DNA from: an uncultured Verrucomicrobiota bacterium
Lineage (GTDB): Bacteria > Verrucomicrobiota > Kiritimatiellia > RFP12 > UBA1067
DNA: 32,866 bases
Direction: 5' to 3'
Assembly (NCBI GenBank): GCA_945834475.1
Contig: CAMAHK010000016.1
Span: forward strand, 1 to 32,866
The notes beneath the pieces are model-generated. The model worked only from the letters and a program-made list of their open reading frames with translations, had not been told where the DNA came from and searched no databases. Positions 955 to 31,912 of this stretch are shown here, piece after piece. Every line of letters begins with the position of its first letter. Position 1 is the stretch's first letter. A program made the position numbers and the translations under genes.

Positions 955-1854
955 ATGTTTGAAGGTAAGGTGGTGCTCGTGACCGGCGGCAACCGGAACA
1001 CCGGGCTTTGGATCGTGAAGAAGTTCGTTGACGAAGGCGCGCGTGTCTTCATGTGTGGGTCGTCCGAGGCGTCGACGGCGAAGGGCGTGGAGGCGCTCAA
1101 GGCGATGGGGGTTGCGGCGACGCTGTTACCCGCGGCCTCCGGCTGTCTCGCTCCGCTCGGCTGTTCGGGCGAGACGCACCGCGGTACGGGGATGGTCCTT
1201 GCGCAGGCTTGTGACGTCGGCGACAAGGCGCAGGTCGCGGCGCTGATGGACTTGATCGAACGCGAGGCGGGGACGCTGGACATTCTCGTCAACAATGCGG
1301 CAGACCAGGGGCTTGGCTTGGGCGGTCCGCTCGAGATGGATCCTGACGCGATCCTGAAGGTGATGGGTACGAATGTGCGCGGCGGCTTTCAGGTCACGCA
1401 GGCGGCGGCGAATCGATTTTTCATGAAGCGGCCAAGGCCGCAGGTGGAGATTGGAGGTGGAGGTCGAGAGGCGTTGGGCGATCGCGGCGTCGTCGTCTTC
1501 CTTTCTTCCAATACGGCGCAGCGGGCGATCCGCAACCGAACGGCCTACTGTGCGTCGAAGGGCGCGATCAATGCGATGGTGCGGGTGCTGGCGCTCGACC
1601 TCTCGCCGCTTGGGATCCGCGTGAACGCCTGTGCGCCAGGGTACATTTACACGGAGCGGTGGGATGCCTTGGAAGAGGTGAAGAAGGCGCGGCGCCGCGC
1701 GAACTGTCCGCTCGGTCGCGAGGCGCAGGGCGCGGACATCGCGAATGTCGTTGCGTTTCTCGCGAGCGACTTGAGTGCGAACATGGCCGGCGAGATCGTG
1801 ACGTGCGACGCGGGCTGTAGTGCGCAGCATATGCCGGCAGACGTCGACTGCTGA
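955..1854 (+). CDS. SDR-family NAD(P)-dependent oxidoreductase carrying two in-frame insertions
   Basis: A 299-residue classical short-chain dehydrogenase. The cofactor motif TGGNRNTG is at residues 10-17, the NNA motif lies in ILVNNA, the catalytic Ser in VFLSSN, and Tyr198/Lys202 in YCASK. The end (EIVTCDAGCS) fits the classical SDR C-terminus. Start: ATG 955 is preferred over GTG 922 and ATG 949 because GAGGAG at 943-948 sits 6 nt ahead of it. Classical SDRs are near 250-260 residues; the excess comes from residues about 58-78 (a dispersed palindromic repeat) and from a Gly/Arg-rich stretch starting near residue 158, before the catalytic Ser strand. The enolase-superfamily gene follows 62 nt downstream, so a sugar or sugar-acid oxidation role is likely; the substrate cannot be read from sequence. 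Confidence 0.85.
   Translation: MFEGKVVLVTGGNRNTGLWIVKKFVDEGARVFMCGSSEASTAKGVEALKAMGVAATLLPAASGCLAPLGCSGETHRGTGMVLAQACDVGDKAQVAALMDLIEREAGTLDILVNNAADQGLGLGGPLEMDPDAILKVMGTNVRGGFQVTQAAANRFFMKRPRPQVEIGGGGREALGDRGVVVFLSSNTAQRAIRNRTAYCASKGAINAMVRVLALDLSPLGIRVNACAPGYIYTERWDALEEVKKARRRANCPLGREAQGADIANVVAFLASDLSANMAGEIVTCDAGCSAQHMPADVDC
1127..1188 (+). repeat. Dispersed palindromic repeat, copy A (in frame inside the SDR gene)
   Basis: The 3' part (GGGCGAGACGCACCGCGG then TACG, 1167-1188) is identical to copy B in the GH2 gene and nearly so to copies C and D. Outer arms TACCCGCGG (1127-1135) and CCGCGGTA (1179-1186) pair, and inside them GTCTCGC (1145-1151) pairs with GCGAGAC (1169-1175), giving a two-step hairpin. 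On the coding strand the 3' half encodes GETHRGT, the same peptide as in copy B. It lies in the SDR between beta-alpha units and adds about 21 residues. Confidence 0.8.
1428..1441 (+). repeat. Perfect hairpin GCGGCC-AA-GGCCGC within the SDR coding sequence
   Basis: A 6-bp perfect stem with a 2-nt loop, followed by a purine-rich run with repeated GGAGGTGGAGGT units (about 1444-1475). Together they encode the Arg/Pro/Gly-rich insertion before the catalytic Ser strand of the SDR. This may be a second, unrelated inserted repeat. Confidence 0.4.
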
Positions 1855-5509: not shown

Positions 5510-8305
5510 ATGATGATAGCTTCCGTTTTTGCTGCCGCGGTTGCTGCGGCGAATGTTGCTTCGGCGGAACTTCCGCCGTGGCGTGATCCCGCCGTCAATT
5601 CCATCAACCGCCTGCCGGCGCGCAACCTGCTCGTGCCGTGCGAGACGGAGGAGCTCGCGATCGACATCGCCCAGGGCTACGAGAAGAAGGCGAAGTCCCG
5701 CTGGGTGCAGTCTCTGAACGGCACGTGGGACTTCAAGTGGAAGCCGAATCCGACGAACGACTGGCAGAAGACGGCGACGATCGCGGTGCCGAGCTGCTGG
5801 CAGTTGCAGGGCGAGTACGATCCCGCGCTCTACACGAACGTTACGTATCCGATCGGCTTCGACGGCACGGGCGACCCGATGGTCGATCCGCCGAAGAAGG
5901 ACTACACCTCCTATTCGATGCGCAATCCGGTCGGCCTCTACACGACGACGTTCAAGCGTCCTTGGCGCTGGTGGTTCCGCCGCACGGTGATCCGCTTCCA
6001 CGGCGTTTCGAGCGCGTTCTACGTGCGCGTCAACGGCAAGTTCGTGGGTTATGCAGAGGACAGCCGCTTGCCGAGCGAGTTCGACCTGACGCCATACCTG
6101 AACGTCTTCGGCAAGAACACACTCGAAGTTGAAGTCTACAAGCATTGCGACGGCACGTATCTCGAGGATCAGGACTTCTGGCGCCTTTCGGGCATCTTCC
6201 GCGATGTGATGCTTGTTTCCGAACACAAGAAGGCGCCGAAGGACATGGTTGTCGAGACGTGGCTCTCCGACGATTACTCCGCCGGCAAGTTCTGGCTCCG
6301 TGACGAGAACGGCAACGAGATCAAGATGCGCGACGTGCCGAATCCGAAGCTTTGGTCGGCGGAATATCCGTATGTTTACGTGACGCCCGTCGAGCATAAG
6401 TGGGGCTGGTGGATCTTCGGCGGCACCGACCACTACACGGTGTCGTTCGGCTTCCGCAAGGTTGAGATCAAGGACAGTGTCATCTACCTGAATGGCAAGC
6501 GCGTTCTCTTCAAAGGCGCGAACCGTCACGAGATGGAGCCGTCGACCGGCTACACCGTCACCGAGGCGGGGATGAACCGAGATATCGACATCTTCAAGGA
6601 ATTCAACATGAACGCGGTGCGCACGTGCCACTATCCGGACGCCCCGGAATGGTACGAGAAGACGGACCGCGCGGGGCTTATGGTCGTCTGCGAGGCGAAC
6701 GTTGAGGCGCACGGCGTGCCGAGCTACTATGCGGCGAAAGGCCTGCACCTGCCGAAGAATCCGCGCTTCCACGACATGATCGTCGAGCGCAACACGCGCA
6801 TGGTGCAGTTCTACCGCAACCACCCGTCGATCGTCATCTGGTCCTTGGGCAACGAGTCGGGCGACGGCCCTGCGATGGCCGATGCGTACAAGGCGGTCAA
6901 GGCGATCGACGCGACGCGTCCCGTCCAGTACGAGGCCGCGCAGGATACGGACCACAGCGACCTCAAGTGTCCGATGTATTCGCGTCCGTGGGACTGCGAG
7001 AAGTATGTCGCGAACAAGCCGGCGAAGCCGATGGTGCTGTGTGAGTACACGCACGCGATGGGCAACTCGAACGGCGACGTCCATGACTACTGGCGGCTTG
7101 CGAAGAAGTACCCCTCGTTCCAGGGCGGCTTCGTCTGGGACTTCCAGGACCAGGCGATCTGGAAGACGGATGCGAAGGTCAAGTGGCTCGCGTACGGTGG
7201 CGATTTCGGGGACAAGCCGAACGATGACAACTTCAACTGCAATGGACTTTTCGATGCGCTCCGCAATCCGCATCCGGGCGCATTCGAGCTCAAGCACGCG
7301 TACCAGCCGATCCACGTGACGGCCTATGACTGGACGACGGGCGAGTCGACGGTTGAGAGTGATCTCCTTTTTACGCCGATGGACGAATTCGATCAAGAGG
7401 TCACGTATACGCGGAATGGCCGTCCCGTCGAGAAGAAGGAAGAGGCGGATGCCGTGCTCTTCCGCTTCTACCGCGACGGGGACCTCGTCGCCTGGGATCA
7501 GTTCACGAAGCCGTTCGCGCCGAAGACCGTACCGTCGTGCGTCCCCGCCGACGGCGCTGGCCAGCCGCTTGGGGACGCCGCGGGCGAGACGCACCGCGGT
7601 ACGTTTAAGCTGAATTTCTGGCGTGCGCCGACGGACAATGACCGCGGCTGGCAAATGCCGAACGTCTGCAAGGTGTGGAAGGATGCGACGGCGTCGCAGA
7701 AGCTTCCCGAGGGCGTGACGAGCGACCTCAAGGTGTCGAAGACGACCGAAGGCGCGACGCTCGTGGACTGGACGCTCGTTGTTCCGAAGGGGCTGCCGCC
7801 GATTCCGCGCGTGGGCCTCACGTTCACCGTGCCGAAGACCGAGACGACGGTCGAGTGGTACGGACTCGGTCCGTGGGAGAATTACTCCGACCGCTGCGAG
7901 GGCGCGATCCTCGGCATCCACCGGGCGACGGTCGGGCTCGTGAAGGGCATCGCCGACGAGAAGACGGGCACGATCGCGTATCCCGCGAATCGGCTCAATC
8001 CCGACAACTACATCGAACCGGGCGAGCAAGGTTATCGCTCGGGCGTCCGTTCGCTCAAGATCGGCGCGGTGGAGGTCGAGGCGGTCAACGCGCCGTTCGG
8101 TTTCAACGCCTGGCCCTATCCGCAGACGATGCTTGAGGGCAAGAAGCATTCGTGGGAACTGGCCGAGACGGACGAGATCACGCTCAACGTCGATGCCGCG
8201 CAGATGGGTGTCGGCGGCGACAACAGCTGGGGTGCGCGTCCGCATAACAACGTGATGCTCGGCGCGGGGACGTATCGCCTGGTCTTCACGGTGAAGGGAC
8301 TCTAA
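5510..8305 (+). CDS. Secreted GH2 beta-galactosidase (LacZ type), compact form with inserted repeat
   Basis: A 931-residue enzyme with a short signal peptide (AAVAAANVASA). It follows LacZ: sugar-binding domain, Ig-like domain, TIM barrel with acid/base E449 in GNESG and nucleophile E512 in CEYTHAMGNS, then the C-terminal beta-sandwich with FWRAPTDND and WYGLGPWENYSDR. It hydrolyses terminal beta-galactosides; the signal peptide puts it in the periplasm or outside. It is shorter than the roughly 1,020-residue E. coli enzyme. The second domain looks trimmed between SEHKKAPK and the WGWWIFGG stretch, and the sequence before FWRAPTDND is shortened exactly where repeat copy B adds residues about 673-698. 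The transporter gene follows after 3 nt. Start ATG 5510 is preceded by AGGTG-type sequence only. Confidence 0.92.
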   Translation: MMIASVFAAAVAAANVASAELPPWRDPAVNSINRLPARNLLVPCETEELAIDIAQGYEKKAKSRWVQSLNGTWDFKWKPNPTNDWQKTATIAVPSCWQLQGEYDPALYTNVTYPIGFDGTGDPMVDPPKKDYTSYSMRNPVGLYTTTFKRPWRWWFRRTVIRFHGVSSAFYVRVNGKFVGYAEDSRLPSEFDLTPYLNVFGKNTLEVEVYKHCDGTYLEDQDFWRLSGIFRDVMLVSEHKKAPKDMVVETWLSDDYSAGKFWLRDENGNEIKMRDVPNPKLWSAEYPYVYVTPVEHKWGWWIFGGTDHYTVSFGFRKVEIKDSVIYLNGKRVLFKGANRHEMEPSTGYTVTEAGMNRDIDIFKEFNMNAVRTCHYPDAPEWYEKTDRAGLMVVCEANVEAHGVPSYYAAKGLHLPKNPRFHDMIVERNTRMVQFYRNHPSIVIWSLGNESGDGPAMADAYKAVKAIDATRPVQYEAAQDTDHSDLKCPMYSRPWDCEKYVANKPAKPMVLCEYTHAMGNSNGDVHDYWRLAKKYPSFQGGFVWDFQDQAIWKTDAKVKWLAYGGDFGDKPNDDNFNCNGLFDALRNPHPGAFELKHAYQPIHVTAYDWTTGESTVESDLLFTPMDEFDQEVTYTRNGRPVEKKEEADAVLFRFYRDGDLVAWDQFTKPFAPKTVPSCVPADGAGQPLGDAAGETHRGTFKLNFWRAPTDNDRGWQMPNVCKVWKDATASQKLPEGVTSDLKVSKTTEGATLVDWTLVVPKGLPPIPRVGLTFTVPKTETTVEWYGLGPWENYSDRCEGAILGIHRATVGLVKGIADEKTGTIAYPANRLNPDNYIEPGEQGYRSGVRSLKIGAVEVEAVNAPFGFNAWPYPQTMLEGKKHSWELAETDEITLNVDAAQMGVGGDNSWGARPHNNVMLGAGTYRLVFTVKGL
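7528..7603 (+). repeat. Dispersed palindromic repeat, copy B (in frame inside the GH2 gene)
   Basis: The longest and most symmetric copy. The left arm CGTACCG-tc-GTGCGTC (7528-7543) pairs with the right arm GACGCAC-cg-CGGTACG (7588-7603), giving 14 pairs around a 2-nt mismatch. The right half matches copies A, C and D. It encodes a Pro/Gly/Ala-rich stretch ending GETHRGT directly before the conserved FWRAPTDND of the LacZ C-terminal domain. Confidence 0.85.
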
Positions 8306-10813: not shown

Positions 10814-10838
10814 GGTTCGGTCGGGGACCTCGTTTTTA

Positions 10839-10847
10839 TGATATACT
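10839..10847 (+). promoter_or_regulatory. Extended -10 promoter for trmB (TGATATACT)
   Basis: TG-A-TATACT just after the holA stop. Transcription would start near 10854, so the in-frame ATG at 10838 is upstream of the transcript and ATG 10865, with GGAG at 10858-10861, is the start. Confidence 0.65.
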
Positions 10848-10864
10848 ATCGTCCCGTGGAGACG

Positions 10865-11527
10865 ATGAATCATATCTTGAAGGTGGAAAGCATTACGGCG
10901 CCCTTGCCGATTGACCTCTCGCGTCCGTTGGAAATCGAGGTCGGTTGCGGCAAGGGGCGGTTTCTGACGGCGCGCGCCGCGGCGAATCCGGACTGTGACT
11001 TTCTGGGAATCGAGCGTATGTTGGAGCGCGTGCGGCTCTTTGACGGCAAGTGCCGTCGTGGCCGAATCGACAATGCGCGTGTTTTGCGCCTTGAAGCTCT
11101 GTATACATTCCATTATCTGCTGCCCGATCATCATGCGCGGCGCGTCTATGTCTTCTTCCCCGACCCGTGGCCGAAGAAGAAGCACCATTCGCATCGCTTG
11201 TTCGGTCCCTTGTTCCGGGCGGCCCTGTGGAAACGGCTGGAGATCGGGGGCAAGATCGAGTTTGCGACGGATCACCGCGAGTATTTCGAGGAGGTCTGCG
11301 AAGGTTTCTCGACCGACACGCGCTTCAGGCGTGTCGATCCGATGCCGCGTCCGAAGGAAGTCTGGACCGAATTTGAGACGATGTTCCGCGAGCAGGGGCT
11401 TCCGATCTACTCGGCGGCCTGGGAGGCGCTTGAAGCCGATGACGCGCCGCTCGCCCCGCTGACGATTCCGCCGGAGCTGGAACCGCGGGAAGGGCTTTAT
11501 CGAAGGGACTTCGGAGGAATTGTTTGA
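10865..11527 (+). CDS. trmB: tRNA (guanine-N7-)-methyltransferase
   Basis: A 220-residue class I SAM methyltransferase that makes m7G46 in tRNA variable loops. The SAM-binding motif EVGCGKGRF is near residues 24-32, followed by FLGIERM. The family-specific FFPDPWPKKKHHSHR is near residues 97-111, and IEFATDHREYFEEV supplies the later conserved block. Length and motif order are normal for TrmB. It has its own promoter and probably carries panB with it. Confidence 0.95.
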   Translation: MNHILKVESITAPLPIDLSRPLEIEVGCGKGRFLTARAAANPDCDFLGIERMLERVRLFDGKCRRGRIDNARVLRLEALYTFHYLLPDHHARRVYVFFPDPWPKKKHHSHRLFGPLFRAALWKRLEIGGKIEFATDHREYFEEVCEGFSTDTRFRRVDPMPRPKEVWTEFETMFREQGLPIYSAAWEALEADDAPLAPLTIPPELEPREGLYRRDFGGIV

Positions 11528-11534
11528 GCTTCGA

Positions 11535-11566
11535 GACGCCGCGGGCGGGGACGCACCGCGGTACGG
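11535..11566 (+). repeat. Dispersed palindromic repeat, copy C (between trmB and panB)
   Basis: A 32-nt copy with SacII-type CCGCGG blocks at each end of a short GCG-GGGA-CGC hairpin. Its complement matches copy D inside purF at 31 of 32 positions. It sits in the non-coding gap, just upstream of GGGAGGA and the panB start, and could influence panB translation or message stability. Confidence 0.85.
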
Positions 11567-11583
11567 TTTGGGAGGAACCTATC

Positions 11584-12357
11584 ATGAAGAAGTGGACAGT
11601 GGCAACGGTTCGGGCGGCGAAGGGCGTTGAGAAGCTCGGGTGCTGCACGGCGTATGATGCGGCATTTGCGCGGCTCGCCGACGAGGCGGGTGTGCCGATT
11701 ATTTTGGTCGGTGACTCGATGGGCATGAACACGCTCGGGTATGGGACGACCTTGCCTGTCAACATGAGCGATACGCTCGCGGCGACGGCTGCCGTGGCGC
11801 GTGCGGCAAAGAACGCGATGGTCGTTGGCGATATGCCGTTCGGCTCGTACCAGTGCGGTGACGACGAGGCCGTCCGAAATGCCGTCGCGATCATCAAGGC
11901 GGGCGCGGACGCGGTAAAGCTCGAGGGCGGCGCGTCGGTCTGCGGACTCATCAAGCGCCTCACGACGGCGGGGATCCCCGTTCTCGCTCACGTCGGCATG
12001 ATGCCGCAGAGCGTGAATGCTTACGGCGGGTTCAAGAAGCAGGGTAAGACGCGCGAGGCGGCCGAGCAGGTGATCGCCGACGCGAAGGCCGTCGAGGAGG
12101 CGGGAGCGTTTGCGGTGACGCTCGAGTGCATTCCGGCCGAGCTCGCGGCGGAGATTACGGCGGCCCTCAAAATTGTGACGGTCGGCATTGGCGCGGGCCC
12201 CGTGTGCGATGCGCAGTGGCTTGTCATGCACGACATGCTGGGTCTCAACGAGAAGGTGCCTTCGTTCGTGAAGAAGTACGCCGACCTGGCAACCATCGTG
12301 CGCGGCGCGTTTGCGAGCTACGTCAACGAAGTCAAGAACGGCAAATTCCCGCAGTAA
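11584..12357 (+). CDS. panB: 3-methyl-2-oxobutanoate hydroxymethyltransferase
   Basis: A 257-residue (beta/alpha)8 enzyme that adds a one-carbon unit from methylenetetrahydrofolate to 2-oxoisovalerate, the first committed step of pantothenate synthesis. Seen: LGCCTAYDAAFARLADEAG, VGDSMGM (magnesium ligand Asp), GDMPFGSY, KLEGG, AHVGMMPQ and the catalytic Glu in LECIPAEL. The start ATG 11584 has GGGAGGA 12 nt upstream. A longer frame from TTG 11524 would translate repeat copy C and overlap trmB, so it is rejected. Pantothenate feeds the 4'-phosphopantetheine of acyl carrier proteins, which the ketosynthase genes 1.5 kb downstream would need; that link is only suggestive. Confidence 0.95.
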   Translation: MKKWTVATVRAAKGVEKLGCCTAYDAAFARLADEAGVPIILVGDSMGMNTLGYGTTLPVNMSDTLAATAAVARAAKNAMVVGDMPFGSYQCGDDEAVRNAVAIIKAGADAVKLEGGASVCGLIKRLTTAGIPVLAHVGMMPQSVNAYGGFKKQGKTREAAEQVIADAKAVEEAGAFAVTLECIPAELAAEITAALKIVTVGIGAGPVCDAQWLVMHDMLGLNEKVPSFVKKYADLATIVRGAFASYVNEVKNGKFPQ

Positions 12358-20709: not shown

Positions 20710-21157
20710 GATTCTTGCGAAGCGGGTTTTGAAGCCGGGGGAGACGCCGGACGTGTCGTTTGTGCCGCCGTTGCAGAGAAGGCGGCTGTCGCCGCTTCAG
20801 AAGATTTTCTTCCATCTTGCGAACTTCGAGGGACAGCCCTTGCCGAAGCGCATCGTCTTCGCGAGCGCGGACGGCGAGGACACGCTCACGCGGCGGACGG
20901 TCGAGGACTTCAACGCCGACGGGACGGTGTCGCCGAACCGCTTCAGCTCGTCCGTCTACAATGCCGCGCCCGGGCTCTGGAGCGTCTTCACGCACAACAC
21001 CGCGCCTTACACCGCGATTGCCGCGGGACGCGACACGATTCGCTGCGGACTTCTCGAGGCGCTTCTTCCCGCCGACACGCCGACTCTCTTCGTCTACGCC
21101 GAGGAGACGGGCGGCGGTCACGGCTTCTCCTTTTTGTATGGCTTCGAAGGCGCTTGA
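20693..21157 (+). CDS. Ketosynthase chain-length-factor-like protein (ApeC-like, Ketoacyl-synt_2)
   Basis: 154 residues that match the compact chain length factor of aryl polyene clusters: LQRRRLSPLQKI, RIVFASADGEDTLT, then SPNRFSSSVYNAAPGLWSVFTHNTAPYTAIAAGRDTIRCGLLEAL and LFVYAEE. No catalytic Cys/His triad is present, as expected for a factor that pairs with a ketosynthase (ApeC with ApeO in studied systems). It is short even for this family, and the start at ATG 20693 overlaps the DUF4160 remnant, so the N-terminus may have been trimmed at the island junction. Its natural partner would be the ketosynthase at 13111, now 6.4 kb upstream. Confidence 0.72.
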   Translation: MKTCVKILAKRVLKPGETPDVSFVPPLQRRRLSPLQKIFFHLANFEGQPLPKRIVFASADGEDTLTRRTVEDFNADGTVSPNRFSSSVYNAAPGLWSVFTHNTAPYTAIAAGRDTIRCGLLEALLPADTPTLFVYAEETGGGHGFSFLYGFEGA

Positions 21158-21890
21158 GATTCTGCGCGGGGCGACCTCCGTCTTGCTCTTCGCCGTCTTC
21201 GGACTCGGTGCGCTCGCGATTTCGCCGCTGATGCTCGTGTTGCGTAAGCCGGAACTCTGTCAGCGCGTCGTGCGCGCGGTGTGGCGTCCGCTCGTCAAGC
21301 TCTTCATCCGGACGGGTCTCATCGCCGTCGAGCGCGGCAATCTGCCGAACGCACAAGGGACGATTCTTGTTGCGAATCATCCCTCGCTCATCGACGTTGT
21401 CATCGTCGTCTCGCTTGTGCCGAAGACGCTTTACATCGCCAAGCACGGCCTTCGGACGAATCCCGTGATGGCGGCGATCGTGCGGGCGACCTCGCTCCCG
21501 GACGATGCGCGGCTCTTTGACGCGGCCGCGCCGTATCTGAAGAAGGGGTGGAATGTTCTTATCTTCCCCGAGGGGACACGTTCGCCGGAAGCGGGCGGAC
21601 TTCATCCGTTCAAGCGCGGGGCGGCGCAGCTCGCGCTCCGCACCGGCGCGCCGGTCGTCTGCGTCGGCATCCGGCAGTCGCGGCTGATTCTCGCGAAGCG
21701 CCAGGCGATCTGGGACATGGGGCCGCGCCGCGTCACCTACGCGTTTCGGGCCGATGCACCAACGGTTGAGATTCCTCTGAATGCACGCGACAAGAATGTC
21801 GCGTCTCCTCTGGACGGCGAGTCGCTGCATGCGGCGGCGCGGCGTGTGACGGACGAACTGAGTCGTCGGATCGGAGGACTGCTCGCATGA
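21138..21890 (+). CDS. Lysophospholipid-type acyltransferase (PlsC family, ApeD-like)
   Basis: A 250-residue membrane-associated acyltransferase with one N-terminal hydrophobic segment. NHPSLID carries the catalytic HX4D, FPEGTRS is the acyl-acceptor motif, and VPKTLYIAKHGL and GAPVVCVGI are later family blocks. It overlaps the chain-length-factor gene by 20 nt and the glycosyltransferase by 4 nt, so it is probably translated with them. In aryl polyene clusters such an enzyme is thought to attach the polyene to a lipid. A housekeeping PlsC role is the alternative. Confidence 0.82.
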   Translation: MASKALEILRGATSVLLFAVFGLGALAISPLMLVLRKPELCQRVVRAVWRPLVKLFIRTGLIAVERGNLPNAQGTILVANHPSLIDVVIVVSLVPKTLYIAKHGLRTNPVMAAIVRATSLPDDARLFDAAAPYLKKGWNVLIFPEGTRSPEAGGLHPFKRGAAQLALRTGAPVVCVGIRQSRLILAKRQAIWDMGPRRVTYAFRADAPTVEIPLNARDKNVASPLDGESLHAAARRVTDELSRRIGGLLA

Positions 21891-25481: not shown

Positions 25482-26816
25482 ATGCAGGATGCGATTGCGA
25501 GATTCTCGGTCGGCCGCGTTACGCGCTTTTACGTGCCGCTGCTTCTGCAGGGATTCTCGCAGTCGCTCACCTATCCGCTGGTCGCCGGCATCGTCACGCA
25601 CGGCGCCTTCGGCGTCAACGGACTGACGGCGTTCAGCCAGGGCCTCATGATCATGTTCATGATCGGGGCCATTGGCGGCGGACTCGTCACGACGGGGCTC
25701 GTCTTTGCGAAGACCTGGTTCGGCTATGTCTCGTTCCGCCGGCTGAACGGACTGATGGCGCTCGTGCTCCTGTCGGTGCAGGCAATCGTTGCGTTGCCGC
25801 CGTTCGACGGCTGGATCTTCGAGGGTTTCTTCGGTCTGCCGCCCGAACTGGCGGCCGTTTCGCGGCGTATCCTGCTGGGCGGACTCGTGATGAACTTCGG
25901 GTTCTTCCTGCGCAACGTGCCGGTCGTCGTTCTCTTCAACCGCTTCGAGAGCGGCAAGGCGAACAACGCGACGCTCGCGCGCATCGTTCTGACGGTCGCG
26001 CTGACGGCGGTGTTGCCGCGCTTCGGGTATGTCGGTCCCGAGTGGGGACTCTGGGCGCTGACGCTCGGCGTCTGGCTCGAAACCTTCATCACCTGGCTCT
26101 ATGCACGTCCCTACGTCGCCGAACTCTCCGGCCGGACCGCGCCCGACCCCGTGCCGCCGAGCGCCCTCGCCGGCGGCGTCTCCATGACATCGCTCCTCGT
26201 CGAGCAGTTCCGCTTCACGATGCCGCTCGCGCTGGGTGGTTTCCTGCTCGCCTGTTCGCCGCTGGTCATCGCGGCGTTCGTTGCCCGCAGCGCGGATCCG
26301 ACGGACATGCTGGCGATCCATTATGTGTCCATCGGCGTGGCGAATCCCGTGGCCTTTGCGGCGCTCAGGCTGCAGACAGTCGCGGTGAAGTTTCTGCCCG
26401 AGTATCCGGGCGACAAGCGGCTGCTCGCTTATGCGGTCGTCGCGGGACTTCTCCTCGGGCTGGGTCCGCTGCTCTTCGCGACGCCTTGGGTCGGCAATTG
26501 GTATTTCGGTACTTTCCAAAACGTCCCCGCACGCATCCTGCCGACGGCGCGATTGGCCATTGGCCTCTATGCGTTCATCTGCGTCATTCACGCTGTCCGC
26601 GCCCGCATCGAGGGCATCGCCGCCGCCCGCAAGCGGTCGGACGCCGTCATGTGCGGGCAGATCGCCTACACGGTCGCCTTGCTCGTCGCCTGTTCTGTCC
26701 TGCTTCCCTTGGGCGTGCCGGGATGGCTGATGGCCGTATTGGCGATCCACGCCGGACCGATCGCCGTCACCGCGACGGTCTACGGACGGTTGCGGAAGAC
26801 CCGATTTTTGTTATAA
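25482..26816 (+). CDS. Polytopic inner-membrane protein, MOP/MATE-flippase-like
   Basis: A 444-residue protein with about 12 hydrophobic segments. The N-terminal FYVPLLLQGFSQSLTYPLVAGIV and repeated polar residues inside early helices give it the feel of the MOP (MATE/Wzx/MviN) exporter superfamily, but no family signature is decisive. It starts at the base after the GH3 stop codon, so the two are probably co-translated. The stop codon lies inside the next promoter. A role in export or uptake related to the secreted hydrolases is only a guess. Confidence 0.6.
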   Translation: MQDAIARFSVGRVTRFYVPLLLQGFSQSLTYPLVAGIVTHGAFGVNGLTAFSQGLMIMFMIGAIGGGLVTTGLVFAKTWFGYVSFRRLNGLMALVLLSVQAIVALPPFDGWIFEGFFGLPPELAAVSRRILLGGLVMNFGFFLRNVPVVVLFNRFESGKANNATLARIVLTVALTAVLPRFGYVGPEWGLWALTLGVWLETFITWLYARPYVAELSGRTAPDPVPPSALAGGVSMTSLLVEQFRFTMPLALGGFLLACSPLVIAAFVARSADPTDMLAIHYVSIGVANPVAFAALRLQTVAVKFLPEYPGDKRLLAYAVVAGLLLGLGPLLFATPWVGNWYFGTFQNVPARILPTARLAIGLYAFICVIHAVRARIEGIAAARKRSDAVMCGQIAYTVALLVACSVLLPLGVPGWLMAVLAIHAGPIAVTATVYGRLRKTRFLL

Positions 26817-30111: not shown

Positions 30112-30157
30112 ACACGGCTTGGCCGTGGTGTGCATTGGACGTTGCAAAAGATGTAAC
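30112..30157. promoter_or_regulatory. Two small inverted repeats in the purF leader
   Basis: CACGGC-TTG-GCCGTG (about 30112-30126) is a perfect 6-bp stem, and ACGTTGCA...TGTAACGT (about 30137-30157) pairs at 7 of 8 positions. They lie between gph and purF. The first may be a weak terminator for gph without a T-tract; the second could be an operator. No clear -10 box is visible for purF. Confidence 0.35.
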
Positions 30158-30205
30158 GTTTTGTGGTCTTGTACGGATTGGTACGGGATTTGCAATGCGG
30201 TTGGC

Positions 30206-31912
30206 ATGTCCGACCAGATCAAACACGAATGTGGCGTGGCGCTGTTGCGCTTGCGCAAGGGAGCTTCGTACTATCGCACGACCTACGGGACGAGCGACTA
30301 CGGCGGGATGAAGCTGTCGCTTCTGCTGGCGAAGCAGCATAATCGCGGACAGGATGGTGCCGGCGCGGCGATGCTGCGGCTCCAGCCCGAACCCGGGACG
30401 CCGCCGTATCGCGTCCTCAAGTCCGTCGCCGCCCAACCGCTCACCGACCTTCTCGGTCAGATTGCAAAACGCCATTCGGCGTCCGATCCGTACCGCGGTG
30501 CGTCCTCGCCCGCGGCGTCTGACGAGACGGTCTTCCTCGGACACCTCCGCTACGCGACCTTCGGGCGGCAGGATCTCAACTTCTGCCACCCGTTCGTCCA
30601 CGTCGCCTCGACGCTCGAGCGGACGCTCCTCCTCGCGGGCAATTTCAACCTGACGAACACGCACGAGCTTTTCGAAGAGTACCGCGGACTTGGCTTCTTT
30701 CCGTCGTGCAAAGCCGACGGTTACCTGATGACGGAGCTGATCGCGCATAACCTGAAGCACGGCAAGCCGATCGAGACCGCGCTCAAGGAGGCGCTCACGG
30801 GCGCGGATGGCGCGTTTACACTGATCGGCTCGACGGCTGCGGGAACGTCCTTCGCGATTCGCGATCCGCACGGGATCCGTCCGGGCTACTATTACATGAC
30901 CGATGAGGTCGTTGTCGTCGCCTCGGAGCGTCCTGCGATCCAGGCGGCATTTGACTGCGACTTGGAAGATGTCAAGGAACTGCCACCGGGCGAGGTGCTC
31001 GTCATCGAGTCGGATGGCTCGGCGGAGTTCCGTCCCTGCCTGCCGCCCGCCGAATCGCGCGGCTGCGTTTTCGAGCGCATCTACTTCTCGCGCGCGAACG
31101 ACGCGGAGATCCATCACGAGCGCAAGGCACTGGGCGCGGCGCTGATGGAGCCGGTCGTCAAGGCGTCGGGCTGTGACCTAGAGGACATCTTCTTCAGCTT
31201 CATTCCGAATTCGGCTCAGGTTGCGTTCCACGGACTTGTCGAACAGCTGTATGCCGAGGGACTTAAGCGCGGCAAGCATGTCCGCTTCGGGCAGGTCGCG
31301 GTCAAGGATGCGAAGTTCCGCACGTTCATCGCCGACGCCGCCGCACGGCGCGAGTTCTACAAGCACGTCTACGATGTCACATACGGCTTGGTTCGGCGCG
31401 GCGAGGATACGCTTGTTGTCCTCGACGACTCGATCGTCCGCGGCAATACGATGAAGAATGCGATCTTGCCGATGCTTGACCGTCTGGGCCCCAAGAAAAT
31501 CGTCGTCGCGTCGTCCGCCCCGCCGATTCGGTATCCAGACTGCTACGGTATCGACATGTCGACCCTGGGCGAGCTCGTCGCGTTCCGGGCGCTTGTCAAT
31601 CTCCTCGGCGCAGAAGCCGACGCGGTTCTGCGCGCGGCACTGGAGGGCACCGACCTGAATTCGCTGGAGAAGGTGTACGGACGCTTCACAGAGCAGGAGC
31701 ACAACGCGGAGATTGCGCGGCTGTTGACGCCGAAGGGACTCCATGCCGAAGTCGAGGTTGTCTACCAGACGATGGAAGGCCTTCACGCGGCGTGTCCGAA
31801 AAGCTCGGGCGACTGGTACTTCACCGGCAACTATCCGACGCCAGGCGGTTACCGCGTTCTGCGCACGGCCCTTGCCAACTACCTCGAGCGCCGCGAAGGC
31901 CGTTCGTACTGA
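30206..31912 (+). CDS. purF: Amidophosphoribosyltransferase, long form, with palindromic repeat inserted
   Basis: A 568-residue enzyme that makes phosphoribosylamine, the first step of purine synthesis. ATG 30206 gives an 8-residue propeptide (MSDQIKHE) before the nucleophile C9 (CGV) of the Ntn glutaminase domain. QHNRGQDGAG, GHLRYATFG and GNFNLTN complete that domain; VVLDDSIVRGNT (D407, D408) is the PRPP site of the phosphoribosyltransferase domain. It resembles the longer, Bacteroides-type PurF. Residues about 95-105 (YRGASSPAAS) are encoded by repeat copy D in inverted orientation, in a linker of the glutaminase domain just before GHLRYATFG, where family members vary. An upstream in-frame ATG at 30119 is rejected because it would displace the processed Cys. 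Confidence 0.93.
   Translation: MSDQIKHECGVALLRLRKGASYYRTTYGTSDYGGMKLSLLLAKQHNRGQDGAGAAMLRLQPEPGTPPYRVLKSVAAQPLTDLLGQIAKRHSASDPYRGASSPAASDETVFLGHLRYATFGRQDLNFCHPFVHVASTLERTLLLAGNFNLTNTHELFEEYRGLGFFPSCKADGYLMTELIAHNLKHGKPIETALKEALTGADGAFTLIGSTAAGTSFAIRDPHGIRPGYYYMTDEVVVVASERPAIQAAFDCDLEDVKELPPGEVLVIESDGSAEFRPCLPPAESRGCVFERIYFSRANDAEIHHERKALGAALMEPVVKASGCDLEDIFFSFIPNSAQVAFHGLVEQLYAEGLKRGKHVRFGQVAVKDAKFRTFIADAAARREFYKHVYDVTYGLVRRGEDTLVVLDDSIVRGNTMKNAILPMLDRLGPKKIVVASSAPPIRYPDCYGIDMSTLGELVAFRALVNLLGAEADAVLRAALEGTDLNSLEKVYGRFTEQEHNAEIARLLTPKGLHAEVEVVYQTMEGLHAACPKSSGDWYFTGNYPTPGGYRVLRTALANYLERREGRSY
30488..30519 (-). repeat. Dispersed palindromic repeat, copy D (inverted, in frame inside purF)
   Basis: The complement of this 32-nt stretch equals copy C between trmB and panB at 31 of 32 positions. 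It begins CCGTACCGCGGTGCG on the + strand. The hairpin has CCGCGG at each side and a GCG-AGGA-CGC tip. Read in the purF frame it gives a Ser/Ala/Pro linker instead of the GETHRGT of copies A and B. Confidence 0.85.

Follow-up and report, generated by a model that had tools for sequence, protein, structure and literature searches.

Introduction

REPs owe their name to an extragenic location, and their scarcity within genes is usually taken as a sign of strong selection. In the excerpts cited here, 14 of 1,067 REP 16-mers overlap genes in Pseudomonas fluorescens SBW25 (Bertels and Rainey 2011, PMC3116915), and every RAYT gene, which encodes a REP-associated tyrosine transposase, is said to lie between two REPs in inverted orientation (Nunvar 2010, PMC2817692). 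Intragenic GTAG/CGTC REPs are also known, over half of the inserts being dimers or groups; the excerpt in question gives most REPs as intergenic and names the verrucomicrobium O. terrae as the species with the most intragenic GTAG REPs (Di Nocera 2013, PMC3733652). Rickettsia palindromic elements, described in the section cited as ~150 bp long, are often in-frame insertions (PMC10969869). Among the matches listed for literature on palindromes, repeats and transposases, a scope outside which most subscription journals and bioRxiv lie, Kiritimatiell- is absent.

The genome considered here (2,567,673 bases in 134 contigs, 85.5% complete) belongs to an uncultured Verrucomicrobiota bacterium. In this one genome two palindrome families, family 1 and family Y, lie beside RAYT-like genes and are found inside genes at roughly the frequency expected from random placement.

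Copies in the window

The window, i.e. the whole 32,866-nt stretch analysed, had been described in the initial annotation as carrying four dispersed copies (A to D) of a palindrome, and all four were found where it had placed them (1127-1188, 7528-7603, 11535-11566 and 30488-30519). Translation confirmed that copies A and B both encode the peptide GETHRGT, and an eye count reproduced the reported agreement of copy C with the reverse complement of copy D at 31 of 32 positions. The repeat finder joined A, B and C in family D8 and paired C with D as I1 (38 nt, 92%). The boundaries of the units, including a fifth family-1 site, are listed in Table 1.

Table 1 Palindromic units in the window
Feature	Position	Strand	Location and remarks
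Copy A	1127..1188	+	In SDR-type oxidoreductase ORF 922-1854
Copy B, left unit of inverted pair	7525..7562	-	In GH2 beta-galactosidase-like gene 5510-8305; repeat I3
Copy B, right unit of inverted pair	7570..7606	+	Reads GDAAGETHRGT
Copy C	11531..11568	+	Probably intergenic, between trmB (10838-11527) and panB (probable ATG 11584, end 12357)
Family Y unit (second, unrelated palindrome)	21784..21805	-	In acyltransferase-like gene 21138-21890; GACGCGACACTCYTGTCGCGTC, ≤3 mismatches
Fifth family-1 site	26147..26184	-	In ORF 25482-26816; encodes DPVPPSALAGGVSM; missed in the initial annotation
Copy D	30486..30523	-	In purF-like gene, ORF 30119-31912; antisense reading DPYRGASSPAAS

Copy A corresponds to the 3' half of a family-1 unit (model match 1160-1191), the 5' arm of which is split by a second small palindrome, ACAGCCGAGCGAAGCGAGACAGCCG. 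This small palindrome occurs at eight sites (≤3 mismatches) in 712 kb of the genome (e.g., window 1140-1164, L042 13355 and L066 820), some of them nested in family-1 hairpins. The left unit of copy B has its stem in the CCGTCG/CGACGG version. At copy C, a TTG frame from 11524 stays open across the palindrome, and the match to PanB starts only at residue 21, which is the ATG at 11584. The ORF with the fifth site had neither an NCBIfam match nor a homologue in the congener G003 with which it could be compared. No structured-RNA family of Rfam reached its gathering score in the window or at the RAYT locus.

Orthologues of two of the host proteins lack the inserts. Opposite copy A, a gap of 25-26 aa was found in 17 SDR orthologues from congeners. 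Copy D is missing from a congener PurF orthologue of 84% identity, which reads QIAKR-ATTP-DETVFL, versus QIAKR-HSASDPYRGASSPAAS-DETVFL here. The named relatives nearest by this protein share 58-67% identity with it and are mostly MAGs from the rumen that bear the labels Kiritimatiellae, Verrucomicrobia or Lentisphaerae RUG572.

As a separate observation, the PurF proteins of several congeners (L090, L091, L093, L097, L099, L101 and L103) carry unrelated in-frame insertions in the same stretch as copy D, such as TGLTGLTRLSG...NPVNLVNPVK and SHKEHIEHK...LCGLCDLCGK, and other congeners have none there. Judged from the peptides, some of these insertions look like inverted repeats at the DNA level.

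Abundance in the genome and distribution among relatives

The repeat is not confined to the four sites of the initial annotation. The 16-nt core GACGCACCGCGGTACG has 188 exact matches in the genome (98 and 90 by strand) and 231 with at most one mismatch (124 and 107), and the same pattern read backward, used as a control, has none at either setting. A 23-nt pattern representing the long-loop form, searched with up to one mismatch, was present in one of 345 genomes of the class, namely this one, and in none of the 344 others; its backward control matched once, in genome G339. A chance palindrome was rejected, the controls of the 16-nt core being empty and that of the 23-nt pattern yielding this single match.

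The exact core was found in none of 39 relatives, 23 of them congeneric. A covariance model search across 58 genomes of the genus, this one included, returned the genome itself and one marginal match (G013, E=9.7e-4). As this search scored 117 first-look candidates per genome only, the pattern searches are the stronger ground for regarding the repeat as absent from congeners. A 26-base pattern had no exact match in viral_contigs, and spread by viruses was rejected on that ground; nor was there an exact match to the repeat from other named species in genome_contigs, a collection from which this genome is possibly excluded.

Structure of the unit

The consensus unit is GC-rich, measures ~37 nt and reads TGGAGACGCCGCGGGCGA(G)GACGCACCGCGGTACGGGG. 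Its predicted fold is a 10-bp stem, in which an A is bulged, capped by a loop of 3-4 nt. Across 59 units aligned with MAFFT, 98.8% of the pair cells hold a standard pair, compared with 19-52% when the strands are slid against each other, and three pairs are changed on both sides in a compensatory manner. For 138 distinct sequences aligned to the model (E up to 1) the value is 98.7% versus 23-55%, a figure not independent of the model to which this alignment was fitted; here 43 cells are altered on both sides, and 28 of the 138 have C-G in place of one G-C pair.

In 712 kb of the genome the covariance model found 132 matches at E<0.01, which form 90 clusters: 59 single units, 26 pairs and 5 larger groups. 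Close neighbours number 42, with 4.1 expected, and 25 of the 42 are in -+ orientation. The TACGG end (CCGTA on the other strand) is nearly constant (44 of 59 units), and GACG (CGTC on the other strand) stands at one end of 24 of the 59; the GTAG/GTGG head of classical REPs is absent at the foot of the hairpin. Because the nearest congener is only ~74% identical in DNA, target duplications and exact ends are not definable. The lengths of 22 internal pairs (REPINs) modulo 3 leave remainders of 1 in 14 cases, 2 in 6 and 0 in 2, values that depend on the model bounds and are uninformative.

RAYT-like transposase genes and their palindromes

Ten Y1_Tnp matches were identified in the genome, of which seven score above the Pfam cut-off. 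One of the weaker ones is a 228-aa ORF on contig C1 (20.7 bits, cut-off 23), for which the best NCBIfam family is the REP-associated tyrosine transposase (REP_Tyr_transpos; E=2.6e-16, 59.8 bits versus a cut-off of 80). This ORF contains MPNHLHVIV, which we take to be the HUH motif of the transposase. It is bracketed by ten family-1 units within 1.7 kb, three on one side and seven on the other, and the units nearest to it are one + and one -. Within this RAYT locus (L031 13760-15460) we also observed repeated modules of ~280 bp, in which inverted units have GGTAACAGC motifs between them. At eight other Y1_Tnp loci examined, family-1 units come within 1.6 kb of two (L075, L076), and no bracketing was seen.

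A second palindrome, family Y (GACGCGACACTCYTGTCGCGTC), was found via over-represented words. It has 95 sites at ≤1 mismatch in this genome and none in 57 congeners. A second RAYT-like gene (contig C17, L070; NF047646, E=5.9e-17, 61.9 bits, cut-off 80) has Y copies both upstream and downstream of its conserved part. The upstream Y copy lies within the long open frame of this gene, and the Y copies have the same orientation.

Homologues of the C1 ORF with 34-36% identity are encoded by the congeners G066, G008 and G070, each gene being bracketed by palindromes of its own that are unlike family 1. The G070 palindrome has 33 sites in G070, 32 in G008, one in G003 and none in G000, G066 or G049. 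That of G066 is sparse, with nine sites in G066 (six at its RAYT), 14 in G008 and two in G070. Some of the G070/G008 palindrome sites inspected (L321-L339) fall in short frames and some within frames of 500-1000 aa, and the tolerance of such repeats in genes may thus be wider than this species, though not uniform. RAYT relatives at E≤1e-20 were detected in 84 of 332 genomes of the class, including this one; the best-scoring relative elsewhere is 41% identical, and a 53-residue piece of another is 49% identical. The abundance of family 1 therefore tracks its cognate RAYT: the repeat occurs in one of 345 class genomes, and the best-scoring relative of the transposase elsewhere in the 332 is the one of 41% identity.

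These data bear on the possibility that the palindrome is MITE-like and moved by an unrelated transposase, as may hold for the Rickettsia palindromic elements, the RAYT gene being merely a spot where copies accumulate. The scores of the C1 ORF under both curated cut-offs and the missing GTAG head are compatible with this, as are the in-frame palindromes of Rickettsia, for which no RAYT is named in the section cited (PMC10969869). Against it stand the ten units flanking the RAYT on both sides in 1.7 kb, the family-Y copies to either side of the conserved portion of the C17 RAYT-like gene, and the sibling RAYTs of three congeners, each with its own palindromes; we therefore regard an unrelated transposase as unlikely.

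A third palindrome, X (CCGGCGTGACCTCACGCC), is distributed differently from families 1 and Y and was observed at 27 sites in the 712 kb (17 intergenic, 9 internal and 1 at a gene edge; e.g., L042 12607-14368, L046, L047 and L048), 19 of which are on contig C4.

Position in genes and retention of the reading frame

Intragenic statistics refer to 712 kb of the 2.57 Mb (28%), made up of stretches of contigs C1-C11 and the window, in which a custom hexamer caller trained on 157 homology-supported genes called 550 genes (85% coding). The 132 family-1 units comprise 100 gene-internal ones, 4 near an N terminus, 4 near a C terminus and 24 intergenic ones, 10 of the latter at the RAYT. The internal fraction (100/132) compares with a random expectation of 71% (binomial p=0.25). 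Family Y is distributed in the 712 kb over 26 internal (in 19 genes), 3 N-terminal and 4 intergenic sites (n=33). As a side observation, one gene of 845 aa (L064 9768-12305) remains open and can be aligned to G003 despite holding three units of family 1 and three of family Y.

Independently of the gene caller, the frame was tested against ORFs of G003 (809 kb fetched of ~1.8 Mb). The frame was kept in all 42 units that lie inside a G003-homologous gene; when spanned units were counted again, they numbered 41, from 30 clusters and 25 genes. No split genes were detected by this comparison at the 24 intergenic units. For 51 of the 100 internal units the part of G003 fetched offered no homologue, and tblastn clusters 11, 17, 25, 26, 32, 33, 37, 38, 46 and 56, which look low-complexity or antisense, were not used.

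For 48 units spanned by a single alignment, 17% of the core residues are identical to G003, compared with 57% for the host genes. In 22 of these units, G003 has gaps opposite half or more of the core residues; at the other 26, G003 residues align at the core with low identity. Since these 26 align to residues, and since the net gain is just 3-6 aa in 4 of 14 well-conserved cases, some inserts have replaced residues or entered stretches that were already variable. Of the four genes with Y sites comparable to G003, residues are clearly missing from the congener in three, and the alignment is ambiguous in one (L053). An ancestral origin of the family-1 peptides was rejected, as the residues are missing from the 17 SDR orthologues and from the closest PurF, and the core identity is so much lower than that of the hosts. 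Judged from the alignments, it is plausible that the inserts form protein loops.

The initial annotation had proposed a mobile, coding-tolerant repeat. Hundreds of copies, orthologues free of the insert and the 42 of 42 units in frame bear this out.

Frame bias and encoded peptides

The 100 internal units are unevenly spread over the six frames (5'-arm frame: sense-0 46, antisense-2 24, antisense-1 19, sense-2 9, sense-1 2 and antisense-0 0). All six frames are open in both loop forms. The bias persists with one unit per cluster (70 clusters; chi2=73.8, p=1.6e-14) and among homology-supported clusters (33; p=3.8e-5). It could partly reflect a preference for a certain phase at insertion.

DNA uptake sequences can be abundant within genes without any transposition, and a sequence signal of this or a similar kind, maintained by selection or biased uptake, would be compatible with the high copy number, the intragenic copies and the non-random frames. 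Yet many copies are insertions relative to orthologues, units occur as inverted pairs, their hairpins show compensatory changes, and the congeners searched gave at most one marginal match, all of which makes such a signal very improbable.

Peptides were tallied for 93 units with standard loop lengths, seven others being set aside; the names are those of consensus peptides, from which single units vary. The commonest are AAGETHRGT (28), VPRCVLARG (21), AAGEDAPRY (15) and VPRCVSPA (11), followed by PRARTHRGT (8), PYRGASSPA (6), RTAVRLARG (3) and PRARRTAVR (1). No unit of the 93 encodes RGRDAPRY, RGRGRTAVR, PYRGASRPR or RTAVRPRPR. One or two arginines are present in 81 of the 93 units, three in 11 and four in one; the rule is imperfect, as PRARTHRGT, with three arginines, occurs in eight. 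This distribution suggests that arginine-rich inserts are selected against and hence that the inserts are translated, a reading that frame retention and frame bias likewise support.

The inserts would go untranslated if ribosomes skipped the hairpins, as in the translational bypass of Magnusiomyces mitochondria. GC-rich hairpins within conserved genes would suit such a process, and the precedent is mentioned in the part of the source cited (PMC6649704). Bypassed elements, however, need neither keep the frame nor avoid arginine-rich frames, and with 42 of 42 units in frame and a strong frame bias we give bypass very little credence.

The initial annotation also suggested that the repeat adds peptide loops to conserved enzymes. 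The data speak for insertions that are tolerated and filtered by selection rather than for a benefit. Adaptive protein decoration, in which enzymes would have recruited the peptides as beneficial modules, would agree with the recurrence of a few peptides across many proteins. This explanation has to contend with unrelated hosts, several frames and a nearly random placement with respect to genes, and the frame bias is already explained by filtering; of the readings considered it is the least credible. The peptides are most likely tolerated passengers rather than selected modules.

Origin and maintenance of the repeat

Overall, we consider it highly probable that the repeat belongs to the REP-like mobile palindromes of RAYT type and that its copies are kept in genes as tolerated passengers filtered by selection. 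Its mobility is deduced from the dispersal, the insert-free orthologues and the transposase. By analogy with the RAYT/REP literature, the RAYT single-strand transposase would recognise the hairpin in trans and spread single units or inverted pairs. No avoidance of genes at insertion is detectable. Copies disrupting the frame or adding strongly arginine-rich peptides would probably be purged by selection, and the survivors mostly encode frame-preserving, arginine-poor peptides (AAGETHRGT, AAGEDAPRY, VPRCVSPA, PYRGASSPA and VPRCVLARG) in insertion-tolerant stretches of conserved enzymes.

A broader scenario is more speculative, and we hold it to be possible though doubtful: the RAYT/REP systems of this group may have lost, or never had, avoidance of coding DNA, so that independent families in successive species would steadily supply in-frame peptide insertions to core enzymes, and insertion might even favour a coding phase or unit length.

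Family 1, together with the insert-free sites of a congener, offers a direct look at which protein positions and which peptides survive the insertion of mobile DNA, and the same comparison can ask whether RAYT systems help to create variation in protein length. Where proteins of such genomes share recurrent peptides such as GETHRGT, VPRCVSPAA or RRDRSVASP, these are better taken for footprints of mobile DNA than for conserved motifs.

Comparison with known systems

The initial annotation had likened the repeat to Rickettsia palindromic elements. The likeness holds for the effect, as in the excerpts cited these too are in-frame palindromes in unrelated genes that yield repeated peptides (PMC10969869, PMC6649704, PMC3733652); the machinery indicated, which that annotation did not include, is of the RAYT/REP type. 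Compared by description only, the Rickettsia elements are longer (~150 bp), with no RAYT named in the section cited, whereas the unit described here has 37 nt and a candidate RAYT.

With RAYT/REP systems and REPINs, as characterised in the excerpts cited (PMC2817692, PMC3116915), family 1 shares short GC-rich palindromes in hundreds of copies, inverted pairs, a transposase gene bracketed by its own repeats and a repeat abundance that tracks the transposase. Unlike classical REPs, it has no GTAG/GTGG head, and its end is TACG(G), or (C)CGTA on the other strand. It also departs from the extragenic habit by which REP/RAYT systems are recognised: while 14 of 1,067 REP 16-mers of SBW25 are given as overlapping genes, 100 of 132 model matches in the 712 kb are gene-internal. 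Occurrence within protein genes is shared with the intragenic GTAG/CGTC REPs, from which, going by the excerpt cited (PMC3733652), the present case differs in a placement indistinguishable from random and in that the comparison with an insert-free congener and the frame bias were measured. Intragenic REPs and in-frame Rickettsia palindromes are thus already known, and a RAYT-associated palindrome without the extragenic habit is a new variant.
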